NCBI GenBank assembly: GCA_021808665.1
Contig: JAKBBA010000018.1
Coordinates: forward strand, 1 to 64,000
DNA from: Actinomycetes bacterium
Lineage (GTDB): Bacteria; Actinomycetota; Acidimicrobiia; Acidimicrobiales; Palsa-688
Reading direction: 5' to 3'
DNA: 64,000 bases
A program made the position numbers and the translations under genes. Positions 1 through 34,391 of this stretch are shown one piece after another. Under the pieces are notes generated by a model that saw only the letters and a list, made by a program, of their open reading frames with translations, was not told the origin of the DNA and did not search any database. Positions within the stretch are counted from its first letter, which is position 1, and each line of letters starts with the position of its first letter.

Positions 1-6
1 ACGGGA

Positions 7-51
<45 letters not shown>

Positions 52-52
52 T

Positions 53-89
<37 letters not shown>

Positions 90-123
90 TACGCGAGCTG
101 GGTTTAGAACGTCGTGAGACAGT

Positions 124-850
124 GGAACATACTGCGCTGTCTATAAATTCGGCTATATGCTGGAAACTCCGAGTATCCAACGGTACTTCTTGTCGTCACA
201 CCCGGTAGTTAGGGTTTTGACGATGAGCAGTGACAATCTGTTTGGTGCGGACAATCAGCAGGAAAGACTTGACGCCTACTTGGCTGGTTTCGTCGACGGT
301 GAAGGTAGTTTTCATGTAGCTGTGCAACGCAATCCATCGACCAGACTTGGTTTGCAACTCCTACCAGAGTTTCACGTGAGTCAGAACGTTGAGCGCCGTG
401 AGGTGCTTGATATGTTGATGTTGAGATTGGGTTGTGGTCGGATACAAGATAACCATCGCGGTTCAAAGGACAAAACATTGGTTTTCGTTGTCCGGCGTCG
501 CAGTGACCTACTTTCGAGGGTCATCCCGTTTTTCGAGGCACAGCCGCTTCTGAGCTCGAAGCAGCAGGACTTTGTGGTGTTCGGCCGGATAGTCCGGGCG
601 ATGGCCCAGGGAGAACACCTGACTGTTGAGGGTTTTGAGTCGCTCTTAGTGCTTGCCGTTTCTATGAATGGAGGCGGTAGGTATCGGCGAGCGAATTGTT
701 CGGGAGAGGCGTTGAGAATCCTCAGAGACCATATGCCGAACGTCGCAGTCAGCGACGAAGATATGGTCCGATCTGTATGGCGACATGCAGAGCCAGGCAG
801 AAATGACCTGGCCCCTGGATCTAGTGTCTGGTCCGGTGGTAACAATAATG
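124..850 (+). other. group I intron in 23S rRNA (after E. coli-equivalent U2604)
   Basis: The exon break is unambiguous: 123 is the expected U2604 and 851 the expected U2605, while 124 and 850 do not fit the rRNA. Group I features are visible. The 5' exon ends in U and the intron ends in G (850). P1 forms between exon 117-123 and intron 136-142 with a U·G pair at the splice site (123·136). P3 is 148-153 with 735-740, plus 155-158 with 731-734. P8 is a 6-bp hairpin, 741-746 with 752-757. P7 is 727-732 with 763-768, with R-like (CTCAGAGACC, 721) and S-like (GAAGATATGGTCC, 757) segments. Subgroup was not determined; IB is my guess. It must be spliced for a functional ribosome, because it sits two bases from A2602. 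Confidence 0.93.
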
Positions 851-870
851 TCGGTCCCTATCCGGTGTAG
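223..870 (+). CDS. LAGLIDADG homing endonuclease, single-motif, I-CreI-like
   Basis: The 215-residue product has one LAGLIDADG motif (LAGFVDGEG, residues 20-28; likely catalytic Asp25) followed by the pattern of the I-CreI family, including a distal VIPFFEAQPLL...KQQDF segment that resembles LQPFLKLKQKQ of I-CreI. Single-motif enzymes of this size act as homodimers that cut intronless rRNA genes and drive intron spread. ATG 223 is preferred because it places the motif near residue 20 as in I-CreI and has AGGG upstream; an in-frame ATG at 157 lies inside ribozyme helix P3. The frame runs through P3', P8, P7 and the intron end; its TAG (868-870) lies 18 bases into the 23S exon. The sequence looks more AT-rich than its surroundings, as expected for a mobile gene. 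Confidence 0.88.
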   Translation: MSSDNLFGADNQQERLDAYLAGFVDGEGSFHVAVQRNPSTRLGLQLLPEFHVSQNVERREVLDMLMLRLGCGRIQDNHRGSKDKTLVFVVRRRSDLLSRVIPFFEAQPLLSSKQQDFVVFGRIVRAMAQGEHLTVEGFESLLVLAVSMNGGGRYRRANCSGEALRILRDHMPNVAVSDEDMVRSVWRHAEPGRNDLAPGSSVWSGGNNNVGPYPV

Positions 871-1181
871 CCGTAGGAAATCTGAGGAAGGCTGTCCCTA
901 GTACGAGAGGACCGGGACGGACGCAGCTCTCGTGTGCCAGTTGTCCTGCCAAGGGCACGGCTGGTTGGCGACCTGCGGAAGGGATAAGCGCTGAAAGCAT
1001 ATAAGTGCGAAGCTCTTTCCAAGATAAGATTTCCCACTGGGTTAACCAGGTAAGTCCCGTGGTAGACGACCACGTTGATAGGCCGGAGGTGTAAGCGCAG
1101 CAATGCGTTCAGCCGACCGGTACTAATCGGACGAGGGCTTGGAGACCTTTTTGCTCGTGCTCGCTATGGAACGCTCAAAGA

Positions 1182-1351: not shown

Positions 1352-1390
1352 GAAGAAGCCCCGCACCTCTAGGAGGTGTGGGGCTTCTTC
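1352..1390 (+). terminator. rRNA operon terminator hairpin
   Basis: An 18-bp stem (1352-1369 with 1373-1390, one G·U) with a three-base loop lies 11 bases after 5S. There is no T-run after it (GCGTCTGG follows), as is common in actinobacteria. It separates the rRNA operon from the promoter at 1409. Confidence 0.85.
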
Positions 1391-1408
1391 GCGTCTGGCC
1401 TTCCGGGG

Positions 1409-1414
1409 TATGAT
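1409..1414 (+). promoter_or_regulatory. -10 element (TATGAT), near-leaderless start
   Basis: TATGAT lies nine bases before the ATG at 1424 and no Shine-Dalgarno sequence is visible, so transcription probably starts at or within a few bases of the start codon. No clear -35 box was found. Confidence 0.5.
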
Positions 1415-1423
1415 GGTCCTCTT

Positions 1424-3217
1424 ATGCCTGAAAACCGACCGTCCCGCTCGCGCAGTTACCGTGCCGGTGGTGATTCGCAGCGTGGCAGCACTTCCGGCGG
1501 CGGCCGTTCGGCTTCCGCCCGCCGCAGCCAGGTGCCGCGGTTCGGTCGGACGTCGACGTGGCGGTCTGATACGGGTGGGCCTAACGAGGTGCAGTCTGGC
1601 AGACGGAGTAGCGAAGATCCCCGGCGTTCTCCACGGCGAGCCGACGAGTCGACAGCGAGCAGGGATCGTTCGATTGGGCATAGCTCCGAGGGTGTGTCGC
1701 CCAAGCCGAGCGATCCATGGGGCCGCCGGGACAGGGTCGACCGGTCGACGGAAAAGTCTCGGGCTCGGCCGGGTGACGAGCGACGCGATAGCAGGCGTGG
1801 TTCTTTTGAGCCGGGTCGTCGAAGTTCGCCGCCGAGTCGTGGCACTACCGGCGGTAACAGAGGTCGTAGTGACAATCGTAGCGACGGTTCGCGTGCAACT
1901 TCTGGGCGAGGTGATGGGCCACGTCCTGACTCGTGGGGAGCAGGTGGGAGTGCCCGCAAGCCGACCCTGGGACGAGCCGGTCAGGGGCGCGGTTCGAATG
2001 GTGGTGGCGGCTACCAGCAGGGGCCCTCTAGATACGGGCGCACGGCTGACGGACTATCGAGCCAGGCGACGCCGTCGGGTGCAGTTGATCCGCGTCGCAA
2101 CGGCCTGAGACGCCCGGGGATGCCCAATGATCCTGTGGGGGGTTCGCAGCCGTCCAGGGGTTCGCAGCCGTCCAGGGGTTCGCAGCCGTCCAGGGGTTCT
2201 CAGCCGTCCAGGGGTTCTCAGGCGCCGAGGGGCTTGAAGCCGTCCCGTGGCGTACAGCAAGCAGGTTGGCGTGGCCAGAATCAGCCGCAGGTTCCACCTG
2301 CAGCGGGCCATAAGTGGGGTGGGGTGGCGCGAAGAGGCATAGGGGAGCTGAACCGGGACGCGAGCGGCGTCGACGGTCCGTCGTCGTCGCAGCTTTGGAG
2401 GCAAGCCGTAGAAGACGACGAACGTAAGGCGCTCCGGGCGACAGCGTGGGAGCCCGACGAGACGTGGGTTCTCGATCCCGAACCGTCACCGTCGATCGTC
2501 GAGGCGAAGCCGGCCAAGTCCTCCCCTCCTGTGGATAGGGATATTGCGGTTGGGCGGGAAGGAGCGCCTGCGCCAGGCGGCAGGAGGCGGACCGTTCCCC
2601 GTCGGGTCGTCGATGAGGTAGTGGCGTCGGCCGGGAAGGCGAAGGGCGAGAAGTTGGCGTCTCGCATCGCGGACGCCACCTACTCCTACGAGAAGGAAAG
2701 GTACGCGGACGCACTTCGGGTTCTTCGTCAACTGGTGGCCGAGGTTCCCGGTTCCGGCGCAGTTTGGGAGCTCTACGGGCTTACCCTGTACAGGTGCGGC
2801 CACTGGACGCAGGCGGCCTCCGCTCTCGAGACATTCAAAGGGCTGTCCGGCTCCTACGACCAGCACCCGGTGCTCGCTGACTGCTACCGGGCGTTACGGC
2901 GGTACGACGACGCCGAGCAGATGTGGGCAGAGCTTCGGGAGGCCTCGCCGAGCGGTGATGTCGTCGCTGAGGGGCGGATCGTGGCGGCCGGGGTCAAGGC
3001 CGATCGCGGGGACCTCGCAGGAGCGATCCTCATGTTAGAAAAGGCGTCGCGCAAGGTTGCCAAGCCCGCGGAGCGGCACCTGCGCCAGTGGTATGCGCTG
3101 GCCGACCTCTATGAACGCGTAGGGGACCTGCCGCGGGCGCGGGATCTGTTCAACCGGGTGGCGTCGATCGACGCGGACGCCTTCGACGTTCGTGCGAGGC
3201 TGAAGTCGCTCCACTGA
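1424..3217 (+). CDS. Arg/Ser/Gly-rich disordered protein with C-terminal TPR domain
   Basis: The 597-residue protein has two unlike halves. Residues 1 to about 400 are low-complexity, rich in Arg, Ser, Gly and Pro, and contain five tandem GSQPSR-type units (residues 240-269). Residues from about 410 to the end form helix-turn-helix repeats of the tetratricopeptide type (for example SYEKERYADALRVLRQL and GAVWELYGLTLYRCGHW). TPR domains bind proteins; Arg/Gly/Ser-rich tails often bind RNA or crowd into condensates, so a role near ribosomes or RNA is possible, but that is inference. The ATG at 1424 is chosen because upstream in-frame codons fall in the rRNA terminator and a -10 box precedes it. 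No gene symbol is known to me. Confidence 0.8.
   Translation: MPENRPSRSRSYRAGGDSQRGSTSGGGRSASARRSQVPRFGRTSTWRSDTGGPNEVQSGRRSSEDPRRSPRRADESTASRDRSIGHSSEGVSPKPSDPWGRRDRVDRSTEKSRARPGDERRDSRRGSFEPGRRSSPPSRGTTGGNRGRSDNRSDGSRATSGRGDGPRPDSWGAGGSARKPTLGRAGQGRGSNGGGGYQQGPSRYGRTADGLSSQATPSGAVDPRRNGLRRPGMPNDPVGGSQPSRGSQPSRGSQPSRGSQPSRGSQAPRGLKPSRGVQQAGWRGQNQPQVPPAAGHKWGGVARRGIGELNRDASGVDGPSSSQLWRQAVEDDERKALRATAWEPDETWVLDPEPSPSIVEAKPAKSSPPVDRDIAVGREGAPAPGGRRRTVPRRVVDEVVASAGKAKGEKLASRIADATYSYEKERYADALRVLRQLVAEVPGSGAVWELYGLTLYRCGHWTQAASALETFKGLSGSYDQHPVLADCYRALRRYDDAEQMWAELREASPSGDVVAEGRIVAAGVKADRGDLAGAILMLEKASRKVAKPAERHLRQWYALADLYERVGDLPRARDLFNRVASIDADAFDVRARLKSLH
2141..2230 (+). repeat. tandem 18-bp coding repeat, five units
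   Basis: Units begin at 2141, 2159, 2177, 2195 and 2213. The first three are identical, the fourth differs by one base and the fifth is degenerate. Each encodes GSQPSR (GSQAPR in the last). The perfect copies suggest recent expansion by slippage. Confidence 0.95.
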
Positions 3218-29089: not shown

Positions 29090-29163
29090 CGGGCGGTGGC
29101 GCAGTTTGGTAGCGCACCAGACTGGGGGTCTGGGGGTCGCGGGTTCAAGTCCCGCCCGCCCGA
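29090..29163 (+). tRNA. tRNA-Pro (anticodon GGG)
   Basis: A full cloverleaf is visible. The acceptor stem CGGGCGG pairs with CCGCCCG, the D arm is GCGCAGTTTGGTAGCGC, the anticodon arm is CCAGA-CTGGGGG-TCTGG with GGG in the centre, and the T arm is GCGGG-TTCAAGT-CCCGC. The discriminator is A at 29163 and no CCA is encoded. Confidence 0.95.
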
Positions 29164-29165
29164 CG

Positions 29166-32892: not shown

Positions 32893-34391
<1,499 letters not shown>

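Follow-up and report, generated by a model that had tools for sequence, protein, structure and literature searches.

A putative mobile group I intron at 23S rRNA position 2604 in a probable actinobacterium

The 3' part of a 23S rRNA gene at the beginning of the analyzed DNA, a stretch of 64,000 nucleotides referred to here as the window, is interrupted by an insert that is almost certainly a mobile group I intron at site L2604, predicted from its sequence to excise itself from the rRNA and to spread by LAGLIDADG homing. Both the kind of element and its exact position have already been published for other bacteria, and the window adds a well-supported new example; as far as our searches reach, Actinomycetota is a new host phylum for L2604 introns. 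One intron family occupies position 2604 in several phyla, and some of its endonuclease genes are broken.

The 23S match at window positions 1 to 1146 covers positions 2508 to 2925 of the RF02541 model (346.6 bits, E 2.1e-111), the alignment being broken by a single gap for the insert, and comparison with E. coli K-12 rrlB, which provides the junction numbering, shows that U2604 precedes the insert and U2605 comes after it. The placement between these two bases, proposed in the first-pass annotation, is thus borne out by both the model alignment and the rrlB comparison, and the coordinates given there, 124-850, proved exact (Table 1). The 5S gene is located downstream of the 23S gene, at 1224-1340. 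At the Rfam thresholds, the whole 64 kb yielded the 23S, the 5S and one tRNA, and nothing else; the latter, tRNA-Pro (ggg) at 29090-29164, is the sole tRNA gene in the window.

Table 1. Features of the interrupted 23S rRNA gene, the intron fold and the encoded endonuclease (window coordinates; E. coli numbering for rRNA bases)
Feature	Coordinates	Strand	Evidence
5' exon, 23S through the U2604 equivalent (gene start beyond the window edge)	1-123	+	RF02541; E. coli numbering
Group I intron, 727 nt, last base G850	124-850	+	Fold and covariation, 32 same-site introns
P1, exon 118-123 / internal guide 136-141, U123-G136 wobble	118-141	+	Guide GCTGTC in 32/32 introns
Possible P10 strand, partner 3' exon 852-855	131-134	+	4/4 pairs in window; weak
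P3 5' strand, partner 735-740	148-153	+	Compensation at 148-740, 149-739, 150-738, 151-737, 152-736
P4 5' strand, partner 255-260 within ORF	158-163	+	0/192 unpaired cells; one variable pair
P5 5' strand, partner 248-250	169-171	+	CCG/CGG or CTG/CAG by intron; 0/96 unpaired cells
LAGLIDADG homing endonuclease ORF	223-870	+	215 aa from ATG 223; ATG 157 also in frame; PF00961
P6 261-263/719-721 and P6a 268-273/711-716, ORF body in the loop between	261-273	+	0/96 (P6) and 12/192 (P6a) unpaired cells
P7 5' strand, partner 763-768, guanosine site	727-732	+	Covariation
P3 3' strand	735-740	+	Same compensatory changes as P3 5' strand
P8 hairpin 741-746/752-757	741-757	+	Covariation at 741-757, 742-756, 743-755, 744-754, 745-753; 0-2/32 broken each
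P7 3' strand	763-768	+	Covariation
P9.0 5' strand, partner 848-849, sets 3' splice site before 851	771-772	+	Pairing counts, top covariation
P9 hairpin 773-779/784-790, loop GCGA	773-790	+	Covariation
P9.1 hairpin 792-797/807-812	792-812	+	793-811, 794-810, 795-809 covary; 3-5/32 broken
P9.2 hairpin 815-821/830-836, drawn by hand	815-836	+	816-835 covaries, 5/32 broken
3' exon, 23S remainder starting at the U2605 equivalent	851-1146	+	RF02541; E. coli numbering

Relatives of the element were gathered through the encoded protein: 43 loci in an initial set, 30 in 396 genomes belonging to the phylum and others in 24 belonging to the class. A strict search for the intron ends recovered 16 sequences including the window, and a relaxed one 32 distinct complete introns. 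The initial 43 loci supplied 28 complete same-site introns; two others (L011 and L013) retained one end only, with the contig cut or no 3' exon found, and the remaining 13, namely 10 with the site uninterrupted within the allowed mismatches plus L028, L035 and L039, were not counted as 2604 introns. The phylum and class genomes added three introns (L044, L052 and L074), eight others being duplicates. Apart from the window, 12 introns (L001-L009, L012, L030 and L032) count as actinobacterial because their titles say so or because they fall in the phylum sample, and the three added introns come from the phylum genome sample as well. The 16 others belong, by title, to CPR groups (Kazan, Berkelbacteria, Kerfeldbacteria, Buchananbacteria and Uhrbacteria are among the titles of same-site relatives), Omnitrophota, Nitrospirae, Deltaproteobacteria, Armatimonadota, Candidatus Nitrosymbiomonas and one unassigned bacterium. 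The titles were given by the submitters, and the bins may be mixed.

To assess the fold, all column pairs were scanned for covariation across the 32 distinct same-site introns, window included; these are related sequences anchored on their own family's motifs, and the counts that follow are not independent events. The top covarying pair was 772-848 in P9.0 (25 gap-free rows, none with a break). P8 and P3 supplied the next pairs, and after them came the P1 extension pair 124-135, which forms in 31 of the 32 introns, P7, P9.1, P9 and P9.2; structurally senseless pairs, such as 129-830 and 170-738, turned up below these helices. In P7, pair 730-765 is C-G in 8 introns and T-A in 24, and pair 731-764 is A-T in 28 and G-C in 4, with no breaks in either. 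The P9.0 pair 771-849 is formed in all 32 introns and 772-848 in 30, the two misses being a mis-anchored row (L014) and a real mismatch (L022). The helices P5, P6 and P6a vary with compensation, as exemplified by the P5 pair 170-249 (C-G in 14 introns, T-A in 18, broken in none of the 32), whereas P4 is nearly invariant and therefore uninformative by covariation. When one strand was shifted by one to three bases as a control, the unpaired cells rose to 64-160 in P4, 36-92 in P5, 28-92 in P6 and 110-157 in P6a. A P5a helix (177-180/242-245) can be drawn in the window and was judged by eye only in the relatives, and the candidate P10 in the window's register has all four pairs in 6 of the 32 introns, window included. 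The terminal G is present in 32 of 32, the extraction patterns having demanded a G. Two attempts at alternative structures were discarded: a P9.2 register at 814-818/833-837 did not pair in the window, and RNAalifold, run on the joined 5' and 3' core pieces, recovered P1, P3, P8 and P9-type helices yet matched the 5' strand of P4 with the P6/P7 region, the true partner lying inside the ORF. Overall, the segment 124-850 combines the elements by which a group I intron is recognized, namely, P1 with its U-G pair and internal guide, the P3/P7 pseudoknot with P8, the P4-P5-P6 domain, and P9.0 with the terminal G.

The Rfam group I model RF00028 gave a more qualified picture. The Infernal search suggested in the first-pass annotation did match the window, at 651-790 with 24.5 bits and an E value of 0.0028, but the score falls under the gathering threshold of 50, and the match puts P1 at 651, the splice-site-compatible P1 being at 118-141. 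Same-site introns of six relatives scored 57.0 (L074), 44.4 (L032), 41.3 (L010), 38.7 (L005) and 25.9 bits (L009), with no match at the 2604 site in L024, where a 57.7-bit match corresponds to a different intron. The sole one of the six to reach 50 bits, L074, is a 427-nt intron from which the endonuclease gene has been mostly deleted. Taken together, the same-site fold, the covariation and, despite the low scores of the window and five of the relatives, the Rfam matches support the original assignment of a group I intron after U2604, and P1 with the U123-G136 wobble, P3, P7, P8 and the terminal G850 are all present in the sequence as that annotation had listed them.

The intron encodes a protein matching LAGLIDADG_1 (PF00961) at residues 20-122 (E 7e-18; 65.8 bits, the cut-off being 23.1). 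Its single motif, LAGFVDGEG, retains the acidic residue at the motif end, which in LAGLIDADG enzymes is catalytic; the motif of I-CeuI likewise ends in glutamate. Relatives are numerous, with 3,354 of 3,997 candidates at E <= 0.001, and 91 solved sequences match, LAGLIDADG endonucleases among them (I-CeuI at E 2e-11). When the window was compared with 11 actinobacterial relatives out of the 31, differences in the ORF body fell on codon positions 1, 2 and 3 in 498, 385 and 1017 of 1570 cases, a codon-position bias as expected of a protein under selection. Of the 32 introns, 27 have an open frame, and in the other five (L026, L030, L032, L052 and L074) it is broken or deleted; such a mixture of open and decayed endonuclease frames is the usual gain-and-decay pattern.

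The ORF overlaps the ribozyme core at both ends. At the 5' end, ATG 223, if it is the start, sits in the P5 loop. Strands of P5, P4 and P6 then supply the codons of the peptide ADNQQERL, and this explains why the N-terminal stretch is nearly constant. Differences there number 5, 10 and 33 of 99 at codon positions 1, 2 and 3, and RNA and protein constraint may both act on it. At the 3' end, the window frame stays open to 870, its stop codon TAG (868-870) lying inside the 3' exon, as would be expected if selection on the protein extended across the ribozyme's 3' half and on into the 23S exon, which would make the core truly dual-coding. In keeping with such a possibility, a rough regular expression found an exon-encoded terminal motif in 16 of the 120 homologues listed, and ORFs extending into the ribozyme core have been noted before, in the available text of PMC1995217 for the L1917 ORF, which passes through P7, P3 and P8, and in that of the review PMC3984707. 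We nevertheless regard a selected tail as improbable and rejected it as the main reading on the basis of stop scatter, codon counts and frame changes. The LAGLIDADG_1 match finishes at residue 122 of 215. Although 24 of the 27 open-frame introns read past the P6/P7 box, their stops are scattered from -390 to +152 nt relative to it, and the exon is entered in just two of the 32 introns, that of the window and L018. Relatives often read the tail stretch in a different frame, which argues against a shared protein, and the tails of homologues likewise translate the core in differing frames. In addition, the tail lacks a clear codon-position bias (47, 53 and 65 of 106, and 133, 109 and 136 of 218, at positions 1, 2 and 3). 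Because the exon is so rarely reached and the codon counts reveal no clear bias, the read-through into the 3' exon looks incidental.

Among the 396 genomes of the phylum, the exact pattern of the uninterrupted 2604 site was found in 214, a relative of the endonuclease anywhere in the genome in 40, and an intron at the site in at least 11 (10 complete, 1 cut), the site having been examined in at most 32 of the 40 protein-matching genomes. In 31 of 32 intron-holding genomes (31 introns complete, 1 cut), the exact uninterrupted site was not found, a count weakened by the incompleteness of the bins. Just one genome of the 32 combines an interrupted site with an exact uninterrupted one: G403, the Nitrospirae bin of L014, which is either a mixed bin or has two rRNA copies. 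Two actinobacterial loci, L004 (1461, 2188 and 3545) and L032 (1369, 2748 and 3256), display three group I core motifs each within one rRNA stretch and, judging from these motifs, carry several introns per 23S gene. In the endonuclease tree, built from 27 open-frame sequences with the five lacking an open frame excluded, the window belongs to a set of six rows, four of them titled Actinomycetota, with support of 100/97. Since Actinomycetota require two label changes on the tree and a single one in 52% of bootstrap trees, one entry into this phylum is possible but unproven. Omnitrophota show three label changes, but one of the rows has a very long branch.

Two further explanations of the insert deserve consideration. 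Intervening sequences of the RNase III type, which are removed without ligation and leave a 23S rRNA functioning in pieces, are among the insertions known in bacterial 23S genes, according to the available text of PMC11270868. However, the complete group I core, the compensatory changes and the 3' splice-site pairing are not expected of such a sequence, and the same text places short non-intron insertions elsewhere (23IS2 and 23IS4) and LAGLIDADG insertions in conserved regions. Given the group I fold and these insertion sites, we rejected this explanation, the probability of which appears next to negligible. It is also very unlikely that the ribozyme or this rRNA copy is dead, as a pseudogene or an assembly error, with working 23S rRNA supplied by another copy. 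The window does cover a single rRNA copy, and of its 23S gene only the 3' part, but the visible exons are intact and, when joined, share 320 of 389 aligned bases with E. coli 23S, so that the visible portion is unlike a pseudogene, an outcome that the first-pass annotation had named as refuting the intron. Furthermore, an identical junction occurs in 31 other distinct sequences, and the general lack of the exact uninterrupted site in intron-holding genomes, G403 and bin incompleteness aside, does not point to a second, working copy.

If 124-850 is indeed a mobile group I intron, as we consider almost certain, a guanosine held in P7 would attack after U123 in P1, and the freed U123 would then attack after G850, positioned by P9.0, joining the exons into a normal 23S rRNA. 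The LAGLIDADG protein, acting as a homodimer, would cut intronless 23S genes at the conserved site, and repair of the cut gene would copy the intron in. Splicing, cleavage and homing are all inferred here from sequence, and it is fair to suppose that the 23S rRNA is spliced efficiently.

The first-pass annotation hinted that the insertion site might be undescribed, a suggestion not supported by PMC11270868 (2024): its available text names 2604 among the 23S positions predominantly encoding LAGLIDADG_1 in CPR bacteria, and the novelty of the site is therefore gone. According to the same text, group I introns at 23IS13 were previously unreported in known bacteria, and group I insertions cluster around the peptidyl-transferase center; 23IS13 would correspond to 2604 because, by the order of the list given there, 23IS12-14 are 2593, 2604 and 2657. 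As described in that source, the CPR 23IS13 introns resemble that of the window in position, group I type and single-domain LAGLIDADG_1 ORF and differ in the host, which for the window is probably an actinobacterium, as suggested by RecN and the endonuclease tree. Among the matches listed in searches of the open-access literature, there was no report of an L2604 intron in Actinomycetota. The LSU introns of Synechococcus, Thermotoga, Simkania and Coxiella (L1917, L1931, L1951 and L2593; PMC1995217, available text) share the group I type and a single-motif LAGLIDADG ORF, which in some of them overlaps the ribozyme core as in the window, but they occupy other sites, and the bacterial LSU rows of Table 1 in that paper do not include L2604. 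Archaeal IB4 and IA3 introns (PMC6125680) are LSU group I introns too, with a LAGLIDADG ORF in P6 of IA3.1, yet their hosts are archaea and their sites include LSU 1931, 2500 and 2593, with 2604 absent from the main text as available. Among the enzymes, I-ShaI (CPR, 23IS7) and I-CeuI are single-motif LAGLIDADG proteins like that of the window, with other target sites; I-ShaI cuts its site and dimerizes (PMC11270868, available text), whereas for the window protein cutting and dimerization are predicted.

Other genes in the window bear on its host. The RecN protein has relatives at 80-87% identity; among those that carry an organism name, Acidimicrobiales come first at 55, 51 and 52%, and an Acidobacteriota record follows lower down at 49%. 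The host is therefore probably an acidimicrobial actinobacterium. A RuBisCO large chain is encoded at 32934-34391 (PF00016, 4.8e-136; PF02788, 2.7e-44), and the host may accordingly use Calvin-cycle CO2 fixation or a type III-like pathway. Inspection by eye also revealed a short tandem repeat with GSQPSR units at 2150-2230, within a long ORF (1376-3217).

The present example widens the host range observed for an intron site that lies just two bases away from A2602 in the rRNA, provides L2604 introns with a covariation-supported fold and suggests why the peptide at the N terminus of the endonucleases they encode is nearly constant, namely because it is ribozyme sequence; it also illustrates that rRNA-based surveys can miss or split interrupted 23S genes. 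A broader and more tentative reading, which we consider possible but somewhat unlikely, is that the L2604 intron represents a cross-phylum mobile lineage extending well beyond CPR, with the endonuclease gene threaded through the ribozyme: starting in the P5 loop, running as ADNQQERL through the strands of P5, P4 and P6, with its body in the P6a loop and its end over P7 and P3, such that translation would need P4-P6 to be opened. If the gene is indeed threaded in this way, the enzyme would be made only from unspliced or already excised RNA, and the intron would have a built-in trade-off between the supply of ribosomes and its own spread.
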